Positions 408 to 9,732 of a stretch of 9,732 nt of DNA are shown one piece after another. Positions within the stretch are counted from its first letter, which is position 1, and every line of letters begins with the position of its first letter. Under the pieces are notes generated by a model. The model had not been told where the DNA came from and did no database searches. It worked only from the letters and a program-made list of their open reading frames with translations. Both the position numbers and the translations under genes were made by a program. The DNA is from an uncultured Gemmatimonadota bacterium (lineage in GTDB: Bacteria > Gemmatimonadota > Gemmatimonadetes > Gemmatimonadales > Gemmatimonadaceae), in the NCBI GenBank assembly GCA_946479995.1, contig CAMLIU010000036.1:1-9732 (forward strand), written 5' to 3'.

Positions 408-788
408 ATGGACGTCACCGCCCTCGGCCAGGTCGCGCTCACGGTGTCCGATGTCCCGCGCAGCACGGCGTTCTACCGCGACTCGGTCGGGCTGCGATTC
501 CTGTTCGCCGCGGGCCCTTCCCTCGCCTTCCTCGACCTGGGCAACGCGCGCCTGATGCTCTCGGCGCCGGAAGGCACCTTCACCCCGGGATCGGGGACGG
601 TGCTCTACCTGCGGGTGGCCGACATCCTGGCCTCCCACGCCGCCCTGTGCGGCCGCGGGGTGCAGTTCGTGGACGAGCCGCATCTCGTGGCCCCGATGCC
701 GGACCACGACCTGTGGATGTGCTTCTTCCGCGACCCGGATGGATACACCCTGGCGCTCATGTGCGAGCGCCCGAAGGGTGCCCGCTGA
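408..788 (+). CDS. VOC (glyoxalase/bleomycin resistance/dioxygenase fold) family protein
   Basis: A 126-residue cytosolic single-domain protein of the vicinal oxygen chelate superfamily, which includes glyoxalase I, fosfomycin and bleomycin resistance proteins and extradiol dioxygenases. Two beta-alpha-beta-beta-beta modules are visible. The first runs from GQVALTVSDVPRSTAFYRD (residues 7-25) to about residue 52. The second runs from VLYLRVADI (65-73) to the closing FFRDPDGYTLALMCE (106-120). The usual first metal ligand His is Gln8 here, a substitution seen in a known VOC subgroup; Glu120 sits at the usual last ligand position. Substrate cannot be deduced. The ATG at 408 has GGGAG at 395-399 as ribosome binding site. 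The gene shares a divergent promoter region, including the DtxR/MntR-like operator, with mntH, so it may respond to metal. It converges with the Nudix gene, leaving a 5-base gap and no obvious terminator. Confidence 0.85.
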   Translation: MDVTALGQVALTVSDVPRSTAFYRDSVGLRFLFAAGPSLAFLDLGNARLMLSAPEGTFTPGSGTVLYLRVADILASHAALCGRGVQFVDEPHLVAPMPDHDLWMCFFRDPDGYTLALMCERPKGAR

Positions 789-2956: not shown

Positions 2957-3541
2957 ATGGCAGATCGCGACCGGAACACCTCAGGCTCATCGAACAGCGA
3001 CCAGAGCGGCAGGAGCGCCTCGTCGGGAAGCTCGAACCGGGATCCCGGAAGTTCGTCGCAGGGCGACGGACACTCCGCGTCCGACCGGGATCGGCATGCA
3101 TCGTCGAGCGGCTCGAGCACGGGCGGTGTCGGGGGGAGCTCGGGGTCGTCGAGCTCGCCGGGAAGTCCACGCAACGCATCGGGCAGCTCGTCCTCCGATC
3201 GCTCGAGCGGAATGAGCGGCAGCTCATCCAACTCGTCGCTGGATCGCGACGAGAACATCGGGTCCTCGGGCAGCCGCGAGAACTCCGGTGGGATGTCGGG
3301 CTCCAGCCGCACCGGCTCGAGCGGCGTATCCGGCTCGGGCAGCACTAGCGGGTCGAGCGGCATGTCGGGCTCTGGCAGCAGCGGCAGCTCGTCCGGCATG
3401 TCGGGCTCGAGCAGCAGCGGGCAGTCCGGCCGCAGCGCCTCCTCGGGCTCGTCCGGGTCATCGGGCTCCTCGGGTTCGTCCGGCTCGTCCGGATCCTCGG
3501 GCCGCTCGGGCAGCTCCGGCTCATCCGGCAGCAACAGGTAG
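2957..3541 (+). CDS. Low-complexity Ser/Gly-rich, predicted disordered protein
   Basis: A 194-residue protein of unrecognised family, built mainly of serine and glycine and predicted to be disordered throughout. The first half carries scattered charged patches (MADRDRN, SDRDRH, LDRDEN); the C-terminal 30 residues are nearly pure Gly-Ser-Ser triplets. Internal repeats are visible: GMSGS at 85-89, 112-116, 135-139 and 147-151, and an identical QSGRSASSGSS at 16-26 and 156-166. There is no cysteine, no signal peptide, no membrane segment and almost no aromatic residue, so a catalytic role is unlikely; a linker, hydration or stress-related role is only a guess. Reality as a gene rests on the consensus AGGAGG and the hairpin 20 bases after the stop. 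The opposite frame gives a Pro/Glu/Asp-rich reading frame that is the expected mirror of Gly-Ser codons. Its own promoter is not obvious in the 207-base upstream gap. Confidence 0.72.
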   Translation: MADRDRNTSGSSNSDQSGRSASSGSSNRDPGSSSQGDGHSASDRDRHASSSGSSTGGVGGSSGSSSSPGSPRNASGSSSSDRSSGMSGSSSNSSLDRDENIGSSGSRENSGGMSGSSRTGSSGVSGSGSTSGSSGMSGSGSSGSSSGMSGSSSSGQSGRSASSGSSGSSGSSGSSGSSGSSGRSGSSGSSGSNR

Positions 3542-3561: not shown

Positions 3562-3597
3562 CGAAGGGCGCTCTCCCCACGGGGAGAGCGCCCTTCG
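3562..3597. terminator. Perfect long hairpin, probable transcription terminator
   Basis: Positions 3563-3578 and 3581-3596 are exact reverse complements (GAAGGGCGCTCTCCCC against GGGGAGAGCGCCCTTC), and C3562/G3597 add one more pair. With a realistic 4-base loop the stem is about 16 bp and GC-rich. It starts 20 bases after the Ser/Gly-rich gene's stop. No T-tract follows on the plus strand, so it is not a textbook intrinsic terminator, but strong hairpins without T-tracts are frequent gene ends in high-GC bacteria. It separates the Ser/Gly-rich gene from the methyltransferase gene. Confidence 0.65.
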
Positions 3598-3678: not shown

Positions 3679-6600
3679 GTGCGCGTGCGTACTCTCCGAC
3701 AGGCGGCAGCGCTCCTCGCGCGCGCTAACACCAACGACGGCCTCCTCGCGCTCGCCGGCGTGCTGGGATTCGACGGCGCGGCGATTCCGCTGGACGCGGA
3801 CACGCGCGCCAACCTCGGCATTCCGCCAGCCGCCGGCGACGTGCGCCTGATGCGCGGCGCCGGCGCGCTCCGCGCGCTGCTCGTGCTCGCGCCGCCGGAT
3901 GCGCCGCTTCGTCCCGTTCTCGCCCAGCTCGCCGCCTCACTCGCGCGCCGCACCTCCCACGTGCTGTGGACCCTCGTCGCCGCATCCGGCGACGGAGGGG
4001 AGGCAGCCATCGCCTGCTGGACGGGAGAGCAGCACCCTCCGCGGCTCGCCGCGCTATTCATACGCCCTTCACAAGTGGTGGCGAGCGACGCGGAGACGCT
4101 CTGTTCGCTGGAGGCGGCAAGCGCTGGCGATGACCTGCTGGTCCACACGCGCTGGTGCGAGCTGCTCGGCCGCACCGCGCTGTCGCGCCGCTTCTACCGG
4201 ACGTTGGAACAGCGCATCGCGGCCCTTGCCGGCTCGCTGCCGCGCATGCCGGAGCCGGACCGTGCCGAGCTTGCGCTGCTGTACGCGTCGCGCCTGCTCT
4301 TTCTCTCCTTCCTCCAGGCGAAAGGCTGGCTCGATGGCGACCGCGCCTTCCTCGCCAACCGGTTCGACGCGTGCATGGCGCGGGGCGGCGGCTTCCACGC
4401 GCGGGTGCTGGAGCCGCTCTTCTTCGGCACGCTCAACACGCCGCCACGCCGGCGCGCCGCCGCCGCCCGCGCCTTCGGCGAGATCCCCTTCCTGAATGGC
4501 GGCCTGTTCGGGCGAACGCCGCTGGAGCGCCGTCACGCCAGGGCGCGCTTCTCCGACGAGGCGTTCGGTGAGCTGTTCGCCCAATTGCTCGGCGCGTACC
4601 GCTTCACCGCGCGCGAGGAGCAGGCGCTGTGGTCCGAGGTGGCGATCGATCCGGAGATGCTCGGCCGCGCCTTCGAGTCGCTGATGGCGGCGCGCGAGCG
4701 CCGTGTCAGTGGCGCCTTCTACACACCGTACGCACTCGTGGCGCAGGTGGCGGACCATGCGCTCGTCGCCGCGCTCGCCACTCGAGGCGTGGATCCGTCG
4801 TGGGTCGAGCGTGCGCTGCGCGGCGAACCACTCGCAGACGATGCCGGACGCCAGCTCCGCGAGCACATGCGTTCGCTCACCGTGCTCGATCCCGCGTGCG
4901 GCTCCGGCGCGTTCCTCGTCTACCTGCTCGAGCGGCTGACGCAGCTTCACGTCGCTGCGGGTGACACCCGAGGCGTGGCGGCGATCCGGCGCGAGGTGCT
5001 GACGCGCGCCATTCACGGCGTGGACATCAATCCCACGGCGGTGTGGCTGTGCGAGCTGCGGCTCTGGCTCTCGGTGGTGATCGAGAGCGACGAGACGCGG
5101 ATGTCGGCGGTCCCGCCACTGCCGAACCTCGATTGCAACGTTCGCGTGGGTGACACCCTCGCCGGCGAGGCGTTCGACGAGCCGGCCATGCTGGTCGGGC
5201 CGCCCGCCACGCTGGCGCGGCTTCGTGATCGGTACGTGCGCGCGTCGGGTGCGCGAAAGGCCACGCTCCGGCGCGCGCTCGCCCGTGAGGAAACGCGCCG
5301 CGCCCTGGCGACGATCGACTTCCACCTGCGTCGCATCTCCGCCCAGCGGCGGGAGTGGGTGCTGGCGCGCCGCAGCCCTGACCTGTTCGGGGAGCGCGAC
5401 CGAGGCTCGATGCAGCCGGTGCAGGTCCGCCGTGAGCTGCGCGATCGCGCCTCCTCGCTGCGGCGGGAGCGACGTCGCATCGCCGATGGGGGTGCGTTGC
5501 CGTTCTCGTTCTCGACGCACTTCGCCCACGTGCACGCGGAGGGGGGATTCGGGCTCGTGATCGGCAATCCGCCATGGGTCCGCCTGCACAACATCGCGCC
5601 GGCGGCGCGCGACGCCCTGCGCTCGCGGTATCGCGTGTTCTCCGACGCCGCGTGGGAGCCCGTCGCCGAGTCGCCCGTGCGCGGCCGTGGCTTCGCGGCG
5701 CAGGTGGACCTGGCTGCGCTGTTCGTGGAGCGGAGCATCGCGCTCGCGGCCGCCGGCGGCGCAATCGCGCTCCTGCTGCCGGCGAAGCTGTGGCGGTCCC
5801 TGTCGGGCGGTGGCGTTCGTCGGCTCATCGCCGCGCGGACGCACCTTCGTCGCCTCGAGGACTGGACCGACGCACCCTGCGCGTTCGACGCGGCCGTGTA
5901 TCCGTCGGTGCTCGTCGCCACGCGGCTGTCACACGACGACTCCTCGACGCAACGTGACAATCCGAGCGACGAGACGTTGACGGACTACGCCGTGCGCCGG
6001 CGCACACTGAGCGTCGGATGGCGCGCCGCGCCCCGCAGGGCGCTGCTCGATCCCGGCGACCCGGCGAGCCCATGGCTCATCGTGCCGAACGAGGTGCGCG
6101 CGGTCTTCGACGAGCTTCGCAACCATGGCCACCCACTCGCCGCGGGGCGGTTCGGCCGCGCCGTGCTCGGCGTGAAGTGCGGCTGCAACGAGGCGTTCGT
6201 CGTGAATCACGCCGGTGGAGACCAGGTGATGGCGACGGTGGAGTGGCAGGGACGCCGCGGCACGCTCGAGCGCGAGCTGCTGCGGCCGCTGCTGCGCGGC
6301 GACGCCGTGCAGTCCTGGCACGTGCCGCCTTCCCCCCGCGCCATCGTGTGGACGCACTCCGATGCGGGCGCTCCCCTCGGCACGCTGCCGCCGGCGGCGG
6401 CGCGTTGGCTCGCGCCGTGGCGACGCCGGCTGCGCGCCCGCTCCGACCTGCGCGGCACGGGAAGCTGGTGGATGCTCTTTCGCACCGAGAGCGCCGACAG
6501 CACGCGCACGCGCGTCGTGTGGAACGACTTCGGCCGGTCGCCGCGCGCGGCCATCCTCCCCGCCGGCGATCCGACCGTGCCACTGAACAGCTGCTACGTG

Positions 6601-6906
6601 CTGCCATGCGTCGACCCGGTCGACGCCCTGGCCCTCGCCGCGCTGCTCAACAGCCCGCTCGCGGCCGCGTTCCTCAACGCCATTGCCGAACCGGCACGCG
6701 GCGGATGGCATCGGTACCTCGCCTGGACGGTGGAGCTCCTCCCGGTGCCACGCGAGTGGGCACGCGCACGCCGCATCCTCGCGCCGCTCGCCGAGCGTGC
6801 CCTGCTCGGCCAGCCGCCCACCGACAGCGAGCTCCTGGCCGCGGCCTGTCACGCCTATCGCCTTGGTCACGAGGACGTGGCACCGCTCGTGGCGTGGTGT
6901 CGCTGA
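3679..6906 (+). CDS. Class I N6-adenine DNA methyltransferase, Eco57I/PglX-like core with TaqI-type specificity domain
   Basis: A 1075-residue SAM-dependent DNA adenine methyltransferase. Residues 1-340 form an N-terminal region with the RLLFLSFLQAKGWLDGDRAF and LNGGLF segments typical of large Eco57I-type methylases. The catalytic core follows: motif X FYTPY (347-351), SAM motif I DPACGSGAF (404-412), motif II VDINP with Asp449, motif III NVRVGDTL (Asp492), then an Arg-rich helical insert (about 500-600) and catalytic motif IV NPPW (630-633). From about residue 795, RFGRAVLGVKCGCNEAFVV to NSPLAAAFL and ELLPVPREW match a TaqI_C-like target-recognition domain, so one specificity is expected. 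No PD-(D/E)xK nuclease motif is visible in the N-terminal region, unlike true type IIG enzymes. The GTG at 3679 is used because an in-frame TGA ends at 3660; GTG at 3685 is the only close alternative, and no clear ribosome site is seen. It overlaps and is probably coupled to the helicase gene. Confidence 0.9.
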   Translation: MRVRTLRQAAALLARANTNDGLLALAGVLGFDGAAIPLDADTRANLGIPPAAGDVRLMRGAGALRALLVLAPPDAPLRPVLAQLAASLARRTSHVLWTLVAASGDGGEAAIACWTGEQHPPRLAALFIRPSQVVASDAETLCSLEAASAGDDLLVHTRWCELLGRTALSRRFYRTLEQRIAALAGSLPRMPEPDRAELALLYASRLLFLSFLQAKGWLDGDRAFLANRFDACMARGGGFHARVLEPLFFGTLNTPPRRRAAAARAFGEIPFLNGGLFGRTPLERRHARARFSDEAFGELFAQLLGAYRFTAREEQALWSEVAIDPEMLGRAFESLMAARERRVSGAFYTPYALVAQVADHALVAALATRGVDPSWVERALRGEPLADDAGRQLREHMRSLTVLDPACGSGAFLVYLLERLTQLHVAAGDTRGVAAIRREVLTRAIHGVDINPTAVWLCELRLWLSVVIESDETRMSAVPPLPNLDCNVRVGDTLAGEAFDEPAMLVGPPATLARLRDRYVRASGARKATLRRALAREETRRALATIDFHLRRISAQRREWVLARRSPDLFGERDRGSMQPVQVRRELRDRASSLRRERRRIADGGALPFSFSTHFAHVHAEGGFGLVIGNPPWVRLHNIAPAARDALRSRYRVFSDAAWEPVAESPVRGRGFAAQVDLAALFVERSIALAAAGGAIALLLPAKLWRSLSGGGVRRLIAARTHLRRLEDWTDAPCAFDAAVYPSVLVATRLSHDDSSTQRDNPSDETLTDYAVRRRTLSVGWRAAPRRALLDPGDPASPWLIVPNEVRAVFDELRNHGHPLAAGRFGRAVLGVKCGCNEAFVVNHAGGDQVMATVEWQGRRGTLERELLRPLLRGDAVQSWHVPPSPRAIVWTHSDAGAPLGTLPPAAARWLAPWRRRLRARSDLRGTGSWWMLFRTESADSTRTRVVWNDFGRSPRAAILPAGDPTVPLNSCYVLPCVDPVDALALAALLNSPLAAAFLNAIAEPARGGWHRYLAWTVELLPVPREWARARRILAPLAERALLGQPPTDSELLAAACHAYRLGHEDVAPLVAWCR

Positions 6907-9137
6907 CCGAGCTGCGCCTGCGCGCCGTGCGGGCGCGCATGGCCGACGTCGTCACCACGTGCGCCGCGCCGCCGGCCATGGGCAGCATCACCCTGCAGCC
7001 GCACCAGCAGCTCGCCGTCTCGCGCGTGGCGCAGATGATGGCGCGCCACGGGGGCTGCCTGCTCGCCGACGACGTGGGACGCGGCAAGACGTACGTCGCC
7101 CTCGCCGTCGCCAGGCGGTGGACGCGACCGCTCGTCGTGCTGCCGGCATCACTGCGGACTACCTGGCAGCTCGCCATGCGTCGGGCGGGAAGCGACTGCA
7201 CGATGATCACGCACGAGGCGCTCAGCCGAGGCTCGCTTCCCTCGTGCGAGCCCGACGTCGTGATCGTGGACGAGTCGCACCGCTTCCGGTCGCCGGACTC
7301 GAAGAGACATGCCTGCCTCGCCGCGATCACGGCTCACGTGCCGGTGCTGCTCCTCTCGGCCACCCCTCTCCAGAACCGGACGCGTGATCTGGCGGCGCAG
7401 CTGGCACTGTTCCTGGGCAGCGCGGCCTTCCGACGGGACGACGCGGCCCTGGCGCGATTCGTCGTTCGCGGAGGCGCGGCGGGCGAAGGCGGGGTCGTGC
7501 CCCTCGTCGCGCCGCCCAGATGGCTGCACACCGGCCACGACGACTCGACTGTGCTCAACGCCATCCTCGCCTTGCCGCCACCGGCGCGCACGCTCGACGC
7601 GGGAGACGCTGGCGCCCTGCGCACCATCGGCCTCGTTCGAGCCTGGGCCTCCAGCCGCGCGGCGCTCCTGGCGACGGTGCGGAGACGCATGCAGGCGGTC
7701 ACGGCGCTCGAACAGTGCGCCGCCAGCGGGCTCGCTCCCACGCGTCGTGAGCTTCGCGCCTGGTACGGCGCTGACGGAAACGTGCAGCTCGCCTTCGCGC
7801 CGCTGCTCGTGGCAGCTCCGGCGAACGATGCCGACCTCGTGAGCGCCGTGAATGCCGAACGCGCGGCGCTCGATCGCCTGCACGCGGCGCTCCGTGATTC
7901 ACCCGATCCCGACCCTGCTCGCGTCGCGGCGCTTCGCCGACTGCGCACCGAGCATCCCCGCGTGCGTATCCTCGCCTTCAGCGAGTTCGCCAGCACGGTG
8001 CGCGCATTCTTCAGGCTGCTCGCGGCCGATCCCGGCGTGGGGATGCTCACGGCGAGCGAGGCACGCATCGCCAGCGGCCGGCTGTCGCGCGACCAGCTGC
8101 TCGACCGCTTCGCACCGGCCAGCCGCGGAGCGCGCGATCCTGTGCCGCGTGAGCAGGTGACGCTGCTGCTCACCACCGACCTGCTGTCGGAGGGCGTGAA
8201 CCTTCAGGACGCGGGAATCGTGGTCCATCTCGACCTGCCCTGGAATCCCGCCCGACTGGCGCAGCGCGTGGGCCGGGTGCGGCGCCCGGGAGGAGCGTTA
8301 CTGGTGCGGAGCTGCCTGATGTCGCCTCCGGCCAGCAGCGAGCTGCTTCTGCGCGTGGAGGCCCGCCTGCGTGCCAAGCTCGCGCGTGCCGAGCGGACGA
8401 TCGGCCCCATGCTCCACGTGATGCCGACGCTGGCACCGCCGGAGAAGGCAGAGGCCGAGCAGCACGACCTTCTCAATGGCGACGTCGCGACCAACGTGCC
8501 GAACGCCGAGGCGCAGGGCGCAATCGCCGAGCGGGTAGCGAGCTGGAGGCGCAGCCGCTGGTGCGATCGCTGTCGCGGCAACGAGCCGCTGGTGGCGGCG
8601 GTGAAGTGCAGGAATGAAGGCTGGCTCGCCGCCCTGAGCGACGGACGGCTGGTCGCCCGCGTCGGCTCCTCGGCGCCGGACGCGAGCGTCGCCGTTGGAC
8701 GAGCCGTGGAGCTGCCCTGCTCACGTGCGCGCGCGTGCCGTGACGACGAACGCGCCGCGGCACTGGGCGAGGCGGCTGGATGGCTGGAGCGCGAGCGATT
8801 GACGCTCGACTGCGGCGTGCACGACGGCACGTCGACGCTCGATGCCGTGCTGGAGCGACGCATCGCCGGCGTGCTCGCGCGCGTGCCACGTCACCAGCGC
8901 GTGCGCCTTCTCGCCCTGGCCACACGCCTGCGTGGCGGTCTCGGACGGCCACGCCCCATTGGTGCGGAGCGCGAGCTCGAGACGCTGCTCGTCATGCAGT
9001 CCGAACGTCGGATCGTCGACGTCGAATGGCTCGCCCGCTCCGTCGGGGTCATCGACCGCATGCCCGCACGCGCGCGTGATGCCGAGCCGCCGCGCGTCGT
9101 CGCGTTGGTGGTGTTCGGGCCCGCGTCAGGCGCCTGA
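6897..9137 (+). CDS. SNF2-family (SF2) helicase/translocase, partner of the methyltransferase
   Basis: A 746-residue superfamily 2 ATPase of the SNF2/RapA type, expected to translocate on double-stranded DNA. Motifs in order: Walker A DDVGRGKT (58-65, Lys64), Walker B DESH (125-128), motif III SATPLQN (154-160), motif IV ILAFSEF, motif V DLLSEGVNLQ (428-437) and motif VI QRVGRVRRPG (456-465), so both RecA lobes are intact. Residues 470-746 form an unrecognised C-terminal region with cysteines at 556, 559, 571, 608 and 614; it shows no HKD, HNH or PD-(D/E)xK signature. The start is placed at GTG 6897 (or 6894), overlapping the methyltransferase stop by about 10 bases; ATG 6939 is a possible alternative. 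The longer upstream frame is the shifted shadow of the methyltransferase gene. The tight overlap implies co-translation and a joint function, most simply DNA modification with ATP-driven surveillance, as in DISARM DrmD with DrmMI. That role is inferred. Confidence 0.9.
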   Translation: MSLTELRLRAVRARMADVVTTCAAPPAMGSITLQPHQQLAVSRVAQMMARHGGCLLADDVGRGKTYVALAVARRWTRPLVVLPASLRTTWQLAMRRAGSDCTMITHEALSRGSLPSCEPDVVIVDESHRFRSPDSKRHACLAAITAHVPVLLLSATPLQNRTRDLAAQLALFLGSAAFRRDDAALARFVVRGGAAGEGGVVPLVAPPRWLHTGHDDSTVLNAILALPPPARTLDAGDAGALRTIGLVRAWASSRAALLATVRRRMQAVTALEQCAASGLAPTRRELRAWYGADGNVQLAFAPLLVAAPANDADLVSAVNAERAALDRLHAALRDSPDPDPARVAALRRLRTEHPRVRILAFSEFASTVRAFFRLLAADPGVGMLTASEARIASGRLSRDQLLDRFAPASRGARDPVPREQVTLLLTTDLLSEGVNLQDAGIVVHLDLPWNPARLAQRVGRVRRPGGALLVRSCLMSPPASSELLLRVEARLRAKLARAERTIGPMLHVMPTLAPPEKAEAEQHDLLNGDVATNVPNAEAQGAIAERVASWRRSRWCDRCRGNEPLVAAVKCRNEGWLAALSDGRLVARVGSSAPDASVAVGRAVELPCSRARACRDDERAAALGEAAGWLERERLTLDCGVHDGTSTLDAVLERRIAGVLARVPRHQRVRLLALATRLRGGLGRPRPIGAERELETLLVMQSERRIVDVEWLARSVGVIDRMPARARDAEPPRVVALVVFGPASGA

Positions 9138-9142
9138 GCGCG

Positions 9143-9732
9143 TCAGCGGGAGGGGTGCGGCCTCGGCAGCCAGCGCGCGATGCGCCCCTTCGGCCCTACC
9201 GCCCACCCGCTGCCGTCACGCGCGAAGGCCACGCTGTTGTAGGCGACGGAGTCAATCGCCGTCCACGTCGCACCGCCATCGTGTGACACGTCCGTACCGG
9301 TGAGCCCGACGGCGACGAGGGCGCGGCCGTTCGACTTCGGCAGGAAAGCCACCGCGGAGCGATAGCCGGCGGGTGAGGAGGCGCTGTCGGCGAGCGTCCA
9401 GGTGATGCCGCCGTCGCTCGTCACGGCGAGGTTCCGTCCGCGTAGCGCCGGTTGCTGGTAGTCGCCTCCGGCGACCACGCCATGCCGCGCGTCGCGAAAA
9501 GCGACGGAGAAATTCCCCGCCGACGCTACCCCCGCGCGCAGCGGCGTGTCGTGCACCGTCCACGTGCGCCCACGATCCGACGTGTGGAAGATCCGCGCGA
9601 CGGGCGCGCCTCCGCTCACCAGCCACGCGTCGCTGTCGCCGCCGACGATGAGGCAGGTGCCGCTTGCCGCGAACCCGCCCTCGCCGGGAAGCGCCGCCGG
9701 CATCCCCGACGCGGGCATCTCGTGCCAGCTGT
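9143..9732 (-). CDS. BNR/Asp-box (YCF48-like) beta-propeller repeat protein (3' part of gene, cut by window edge)
   Basis: This is the C-terminal part of a beta-propeller protein; the frame stays open to the right edge, so the Met at 9718 is not taken as the start. Three Asp-box repeats of the S-x-D-x-G-x-x-W type are visible when counted from that Met: SDRGRTW (47-53), SDGGITW (101-107) and SHDGGATW (145-152). Each is preceded by a strand pair such as NFSVAFRDARHGVVAGGD. PGEGGFAASGT (11-21) is a further typical segment of YCF48/sialidase-like propellers annotated as photosystem II assembly-like or oxidoreductase. Such proteins are often exported, but the N-terminus lies outside the window, so a signal peptide cannot be judged. 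Function is unknown; members outside phototrophs have no settled role. It converges with the helicase gene across a 5-base gap. Confidence 0.85.
   Translation of the reverse strand, partial: SWHEMPASGMPAALPGEGGFAASGTCLIVGGDSDAWLVSGGAPVARIFHTSDRGRTWTVHDTPLRAGVASAGNFSVAFRDARHGVVAGGDYQQPALRGRNLAVTSDGGITWTLADSASSPAGYRSAVAFLPKSNGRALVAVGLTGTDVSHDGGATWTAIDSVAYNSVAFARDGSGWAVGPKGRIARWLPRPHPSR

Follow-up and report, generated by a model that had tools for sequence, protein, structure and literature searches.

Among described systems, the locus reported here comes closest to the DUF499-centred BREX-Related systems (Types 1-3, including Hma). These are described as combining an N6-adenine DNA methyltransferase (MTase) with an SNF2 helicase; in Type 2 the helicase comes with an HKD nuclease, and Type 3 has a nuclease-less SNF2 helicase in addition to PglZ and iSTAND (PMC12839542). 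Class 1 DISARM likewise has a large adenine MTase and an SNF2 helicase. A few lineages are known to have core orphan methylases, CamA among them. CamA of Clostridioides difficile is described as an orphan N6-adenine MTase with the motif CAAAAA that occurs in all sequenced C. difficile genomes, and that description mentions no counterpart of a dedicated SNF2 partner (PMC8187626). Here we analyse a 9,732-nt window, that is, the whole stretch of DNA under study, from an uncultured Gemmatimonadota bacterium (contig CAMLIU010000036.1), in which an adenine MTase gene is followed by an overlapping gene for an SNF2-family ATPase. The pair resembles part of a restriction-modification (R-M)-like system as well as a core orphan methylase, and we class it with neither. 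We give an even chance to the reading that it serves the Gemmatimonadota lineage as a core adenine-methylation module on the chromosome and goes back to an R-M-like system with a PLD nuclease on its helicase. If true, a core orphan methylase that is present in most genomes of a family and in much of a phylum, with an SNF2 motor of its own, would be a new arrangement. A literature search returned no description of the pair or of its methylation, which is not proof that none is in print.

The first gene (positions 3679-6906, forward strand) encodes an Eco57I/CamA/MmeI-like N6-adenine DNA MTase of 1075 aa. An alternative GTG start at 3685 matches the start positions of most MTase homologues better than 3679. 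The second gene (6897-9137, forward strand) encodes the SNF2-family ATPase (helicase), with 746 aa from the GTG at 6897 or 747 aa from the GTG at 6894. The MTase stop codon lies at 6904-6906, so that the two genes overlap by 10-13 nt. Pfam assigned the MTase to Eco57I (63.6 bits) and the helicase to SNF2-rel_dom (41.4 bits) and Helicase_C (47.9 bits), the latter two above their cut-offs. Motif I of the MTase (DPACGSGAF, 4888-4914) is (nearly) invariant and motif IV (NPPW, 5566-5577) invariant across 20 aligned rows. The helicase has the Walker A motif GRGKT (7077-7091), the DESH box (7269-7280) and motif VI (QRVGRVRR, 8262-8285). The original prediction of two overlapping genes for an intact methylase and an intact SNF2-type ATPase was correct. 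The motifs are also retained in the Gemmatimonadota relatives, where, leaving out MTases shorter than 940 aa, helicases shorter than 590 aa and copies differing only at their ends, motif I fits the pattern in 88 of 91 MTases, NPP[WYF] and NPPW in 91 of 91 each, GxGK[TS] in 65 of 67 helicases, DExH in 67 of 67 and motif VI in 65 of 67. Two of the three MTases outside the motif I pattern keep the variants LDAACGSG and LDPTCGSG. The best 120 protein matches range from 95 to 63% identity for the MTase and from 98 to 49% for the helicase, nearly all at more than 90% query coverage, and the named relatives of both proteins are mostly Gemmatimonadaceae and other Gemmatimonadota. Several MTase and helicase matches lie on contigs of equal length. 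Judged by these alignments, the conservation of the pair is far beyond chance.

The distribution of the pair was assessed with a 20-row MTase profile (E ≤ 1e-20) in 298 sampled genomes of the phylum (at most two candidates per genome) and in 179 genomes of the family (at most four). Matches were obtained in 155 of the 179 family genomes, two of them weak (G240 and G176), and in 169 of the 298 phylum genomes. A helicase profile was run with at most three candidates scored per genome and matched 184 genomes. This number was dropped as a count of partners, since other SNF2 proteins may be matched by the same profile, and pairing was counted from listed places only, which cover 148 of the 169 MTase-matching and 142 of the 184 helicase-matching genomes. 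Both places are listed in 132 genomes, and in 124 of these the helicase lies directly downstream of the MTase on the same contig and strand, with a spacing between profile matches of -9 to 2205 bases. In the remaining eight, the helicase is on a separate contig (seven genomes) or 11.9 kb away (G036). A listed MTase place without a listed helicase place was found in 16 genomes; 12 of them have a helicase match, which leaves G090, G227, G274 and G298. The contig ends on the downstream side of the MTase in G227 and G274, and G298 has a short MTase frame of 597 aa on a contig that continues. Conversely, ten genomes have a listed helicase place without a listed MTase place. Among 60 distinct Gemmatimonadota loci with at least 2.6 kb of downstream sequence, the helicase was found by clustering in 54 and by profile search in four more (L023, L032, L121 of G015 and L136 of G119), leaving L031, with a short MTase frame, and L118 (G090). 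The isolated MTase-helicase pair is a lineage trait. A search of plasmid and phage collections turned up no record that spans 80% of the MTase at a single place, and the matches obtained (272 plasmid and 6 phage records) all stay below 60% identity. As a side observation, the roughly 12 kb between the shortened MTase frame and the helicase in G036 (L185/L186) contain Cas1-family and Hypoth_Ymh genes.

The chromosomal setting was examined in 151 loci including the window (122 taken as Gemmatimonadota, 104 of them distinct), in which genes were called by a codon-usage script and then clustered. Families that recur upstream of the pair are an Nramp transporter, a Nudix hydrolase, a rhodanese, an LD-carboxypeptidase, an SDF symporter and a family-2 glycosyltransferase. 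On the downstream side, the recurring families are an ECF sigma factor, a HAD phosphatase that lies upstream in some loci, and two families for which no Pfam match reached the cut-off. In the window, four of these genes are found on the reverse strand, in order and orientation matching the relatives: an Nramp transporter fragment cut at the window edge (2-319), the Nudix hydrolase (794-1483), the rhodanese-like protein (1446-1772) and the LD-carboxypeptidase of family S66 (1850-2785). Among the 56 distinct Gemmatimonadota loci with at least 7 kb of upstream sequence, they recur in 27, 39, 21 and 23 loci, respectively; at least one of the four is present in 44 loci, at least two in 36 and at least three in 19. 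The locus sits among housekeeping genes rather than in a defence island. Because relatives occur in most examined Gemmatimonadaceae, often beside the same housekeeping genes, we favour inherited DNA marking over a mobile anti-virus island.

Divergence of the MTase tracks both the helicase and the flanking genes. Across 51 loci, the pairwise protein distances of MTase and helicase are correlated at r 0.90, a value that none of 199 permutations reached. Compared with eight flanking families, r was 0.70-0.94 for the MTase, again with 0 of 199 permutations as high for each family, and 0.51-0.87 for the helicase. The flanking genes are linked to the pair, and this congruence therefore speaks against transfer of the pair alone, not against transfer of the whole region. 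Both genes are under purifying selection: on the most similar pairs of sequences (at most 12 pairs per gene), dN/dS was 0.11-0.26 for the MTase (12 pairs) and 0.13-0.29 for the helicase (5 pairs), compared with 0.06-0.28 for four flanking genes.

As a rule, R-M families diversify in their recognition domain. We placed the target-recognition domain of the MTase at residues 791-1024 (6049-6750, forward strand; the boundaries are our own choice). Within Gemmatimonadota its mean pairwise identity is 0.48, next to 0.52 for each of two catalytic blocks and 0.315 for the N-terminus. At catalytic identities of about 0.38, 0.44-0.45 and 0.56-0.57, recognition-domain identity is 0.374, 0.398 and 0.539 in Gemmatimonadota (132, 1594 and 2285 pairs), whereas 21 distant MTases show 0.259, 0.330 and 0.394 at the same catalytic identities (16, 123 and 65 pairs). 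In these alignments, the recognition domain is conserved almost like the catalytic domain in Gemmatimonadota, unlike in the distant relatives, which suggests one target motif common to the Gemmatimonadota MTases.

These data bear on the main rival explanation, a nuclease-free and vertically inherited phage defence in which the MTase would mark self DNA and the ATPase would translocate on unmodified foreign DNA and block its replication or transcription without cutting it. The original prediction had proposed a minimal two-gene defence by translocation rather than cutting as one option. Of that proposal, the isolated pair without a recognised nuclease stood, whereas setting, prevalence in the family, congruence with the flanks and the conserved recognition domain fit core methylation better. 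On the other hand, the distant homologues described below are R-M-like and carry a PLD nuclease on the helicase, some of their loci have neighbours of defence type, and PADLOC profiles for DrmD, BrxHI and IIG enzymes match the pair in part. Nuclease-less SNF2 helicases also occur in Type 3 BREX-Related systems (PMC12839542), but these carry PglZ and a DUF499 ATPase, neither of which was seen beside the pair. We hold phage defence to be possible rather than probable.

The distant relatives show what the Gemmatimonadota pair lacks. In 24 loci of other phyla, with MTases 23-27% identical, a helicase on the same strand lies upstream of the MTase in 19 (as the next gene in 14) and downstream in two; none was seen in three. 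These helicases are mostly about 1,000-1,160 aa long. PLDc_2 was found above cut-off in all four that were run through Pfam (L062, L067, L080 and L078), and the N-terminal PLD motifs HxK and GSSN are both present in 19 of 19 aligned distant helicases, two short helicase pieces having been dropped. No PLD match was obtained in Pfam for the helicase of the window or for seven other helicases of MTase-first loci. Gemmatimonadota helicases have a median of 65 residues ahead of Walker A, and at most 105 in 62 of 65. The Gemmatimonadota helicases of L122, L123 and L124 have 225-235 residues there, with no HxK and no PLD match. This extra N-terminus is possibly a decayed PLD domain; the profile alignment reached only its part adjoining Walker A. 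Five further records (two Myxococcales, three 'Proteobacteria') likewise have the MTase gene first and a short helicase of 653-780 aa, in some cases truncated at the end of a contig; two of these five helicases, run through Pfam, gave no PLD match. The genes next to the distant MTases in L056, L062, L067, L069, L077 and L080 vary and include GmrSD-type nucleases (L069 and L080), AAA/SMC-like ATPases (L056, L067 and L077) and a Piwi-domain protein.

Loci of a PLD nuclease-SNF2 helicase with an Eco57I-like MTase, with partial PADLOC matches to 'HKD+Snf2' and 'PLD_Helicase', have a homologous MTase and SNF2 protein in nearby genes. They differ from the pair in the N-terminal PLD domain on the helicase, the mostly helicase-first order, the varying neighbours and the faster-diverging recognition domain. 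The original prediction had also considered that homologous pairs might always sit in a complete known system; this is not so in Gemmatimonadota, while the distant homologues do make up a system with a nuclease. The simplest history would be that the Gemmatimonadota line lost the nuclease, with gain elsewhere as a possible alternative. The ancestor would then have been an R-M-like system with a PLD nuclease on the helicase that is missing here. The pair may be a case of an R-M-like system that has apparently turned into a resident DNA-marking system, for which both nuclease-bearing relatives and a helicase-less member are available for comparison.

The absence of a nuclease domain had been set beforehand as one of the points on which the original prediction would stand or fall. 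No nuclease Pfam match was obtained in the MTase or the helicase of the window, and no cognate nuclease was found beside the MTase when Pfam was applied to the window and the neighbour families. The predicted structures of the MTase and the helicase have a mean pLDDT of 91.7 and 89.4, respectively. CamA has the closest fold to the predicted MTase, with the same order of catalytic and recognition domains, and MTase residues 312-1066 superimpose on it. Because the model covers both of these domains of CamA, a single specificity domain is a fair reading. The original prediction had called this domain TaqI-type, for which the TaqI_C match (15.7 bits) stays below the cut-off of 26.5 bits. The two proteins differ in length (577-578 aa in the CamA chain, 1075 aa in the MTase), share about 18% identity, and the CamA structures align nothing before residue 312 of the MTase model. 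A CamA-like core orphan MTase would be expected in nearly all members of its lineage; the 155 of 179 family genomes with the MTase, whose assembly completeness is not given, are most, not nearly all.

The pair might also be a full restriction system whose nuclease escaped recognition, either in residues 1-165 of the MTase or in the part of the helicase past about residue 530 of the folded chain. N-terminal nucleases are usual in type IIG/IIL enzymes, and the listed solved structures extend over neither of these two regions. Among 50 such structures, none aligns ahead of MTase residue 128; since they barely reach the MTase before about residue 165 or the helicase beyond about 526-530, families absent from that list are no evidence. 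The N-terminal domain of the MTase comprises residues 1-165 (3679-4173, forward strand). Its residues 1-150 contain zero lysines and hence no canonical PD-(D/E)XK site. Together with the lack of a nuclease Pfam match and the poor conservation of the N-terminus (0.315), this makes a hidden nuclease very unlikely. The MTase thus differs from type IIG/IIL enzymes such as MmeI, in that no PD-(D/E)XK signature was found in it and the SNF2 ATPase is a separate protein. Type ISP enzymes (LlaGI-like) unite nuclease, helicase and MTase in one polypeptide, whereas here separate overlapping genes are found.

The pair could further be what remains of a DISARM, BREX or BREX-Related (Hma) system, with the other subunits encoded away from it in the genome; an orphan part of a system had been the second option of the original prediction. 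PADLOC profiles match in part: those of IIG enzymes (149.4 bits), DrmMI and PglX for the MTase, those of DrmD, BrxHI, DpdE and others for the helicase, and HmaA for the pair. However, no open reading frame for DrmA, DrmB or DrmC was found in the window. Of the ten recurring neighbour families, each run through Pfam with one representative, eight are of other kinds, one gave sub-threshold matches only and one no match. The claim of an isolated, conserved pair without a third subunit was borne out in so far as no drm, pglZ or brx gene occurs in the window or these ten families. A DUF499 ATPase was found neither in the window nor in the examined neighbour families; no genome-wide search was made for it. 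MZB/DUF1998 (DrmB-type, PF09369) was matched in 0 of 18 MTase-carrying genomes, 17 of which have a helicase match, compared with 8 of 14 controls. PglZ-domain matches were obtained in 15 of the 18 genomes, 14 of them over cut-off, and none adjoins the pair. Two of these 15 genomes were checked (L182 and L184), and both proteins are PorX-like fusions of a response regulator with PglZ; an assignment to BREX was rejected for these two. PorX-like matches of this kind could be misread as BREX. With neighbours that are mostly housekeeping genes, an origin as a leftover is the least probable of the explanations weighed here, and the suggestion of an orphan part with its other genes elsewhere was not supported.

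Assuming that the pair is a core methylation module, the MTase would methylate adenine at N6 in a single conserved motif across the chromosome. The SNF2 ATPase would translocate on double-stranded DNA and work together with the MTase, most likely by shifting or removing proteins on the DNA so that MTase sites stay fully methylated, or by acting at these sites. An analogy comes from eukaryotes, where the SNF2 ATPases HELLS and DDM1 are critical for the maintenance of 5-methylcytosine (PMC10538959). By analogy, the pair might be a bacterial counterpart of the HELLS/DDM1 partnership of remodeller and methylase, in which a motor clears DNA of proteins so that one adenine motif stays fully methylated, and which arose by removal of the nuclease from an R-M-like system; we put this forward tentatively and with more doubt than confidence. 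The ATPase might instead act on transcription, by RapA-like recycling of RNA polymerase, and merely be co-transcribed with an orphan MTase. RapA is the best match of the helicase profile among solved sequences, and one genome (G090) has the MTase without a helicase in the locus or a match in the genome, where three candidates were scored. The adjacency in 124 of 132 genomes and the correlated distances suggest a common task instead, and the distant homologues pair the same types of protein, with the nuclease fused to the helicase. A RapA-like role is therefore unlikely.

Several observations weigh against a core methylation module. No MTase match was obtained in 24 of the 179 family and 129 of the 298 phylum genomes, in which assembly gaps, misses and true absence are inseparable because completeness is not given and few candidates per genome were scored. 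Twelve of the 56 loci carry none of the four neighbour families. Divergence is faster in the helicase than in the MTase, and the helicase shows a weak correlation with some flanking families (Nramp 0.51, Nudix 0.57, ECF 0.57). Linked flanks make the congruence weaker evidence than an unlinked marker would. The window served as anchor for aligning the distant MTases, a handicap for the distant set that may exaggerate the gap in recognition-domain identity. Methylation or expression data for a strain with both genes were not found. Finally, in G090 the MTase persists without a helicase match, so that the partner seems dispensable there, and the activity of the MTase family is not established from this genome, in which at least four adenine-MTase genes stand for three published motifs.

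G090 (L118) is a genome fitting Gemmatirosa. Its MTase keeps motifs I and IV, there is no helicase in the locus, and the genome-wide profile search (three candidates scored) gave no helicase match; the next gene on the same strand, 87 bases past the MTase, belongs to the sigma-factor family. The published methylome of Gemmatirosa comprises the motifs RGATCY, ATGCAC and CCAGN7TCA, each more than 99% methylated (PMC3974934). At least four adenine-MTase genes were found in G090 (loci L118, L162, L165, L175 and L181): the pair-type MTase, an HsdM-like gene, an MmeI-like open frame of 928 aa and an MT-A70 gene. PF01555 and PF02086 gave no match in G090, compared with 12 and 7 of 14 control genomes; the MT-A70 profile matched none of the 14 controls. 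Since four candidate genes thus compete for three motifs, the assignment of a motif to the MTase was abandoned. As the likeliest split, which follows usual practice and does not count as a result, HsdM would account for CCAGN7TCA and the MmeI-like enzyme for ATGCAC. RGATCY is methylated by an orphan MTase in another bacterium (PMC4490391), which did not settle the assignment, and neither did two further sources (PMC10734518 and PMC11711589). The cleanest genotype encountered is that of G050 (contig of 4,716,552 bp), in which profiles of six families (PF07669, PF02384, PF20473, PF05063, PF01555 and PF02086) found no adenine MTase other than the pair-type one. G090 nevertheless offers a natural test of MTase function without the helicase. 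The phylum has cultured strains, one of them with this published methylome, and the question is therefore testable by long-read sequencing.

The remaining features of the window flank the pair. A perfect hairpin (3562-3597) lies upstream of the MTase gene, with arms of 17 nt (3562-3578 and 3581-3597) that are 100% complementary, as had been noted originally; a scan for T-run terminators gave no scored tail for it. On the right, the locus is closed by a convergent gene for a BNR/Ycf48-like repeat protein (9143-9730, reverse strand, cut at the window edge). Its end at 9143 is five bases from the helicase stop, which agrees with the original description, and relatives of this gene occur in L001 and L029. 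Scans of the window with Rfam and for tRNA genes gave no match. Between the LD-carboxypeptidase gene and the hairpin, a low-complexity frame rich in Ser, Gly and Asp (2957-3541, forward strand) has a sub-threshold Collagen match; by comparison, 29 of the 56 relatives with 7 kb upstream carry a glycosyltransferase gene at some point in that upstream region. A Glyoxalase/VOC-family protein, with relatives in six other loci, is encoded at 408-788 (forward strand) between the genes for Nramp and Nudix.

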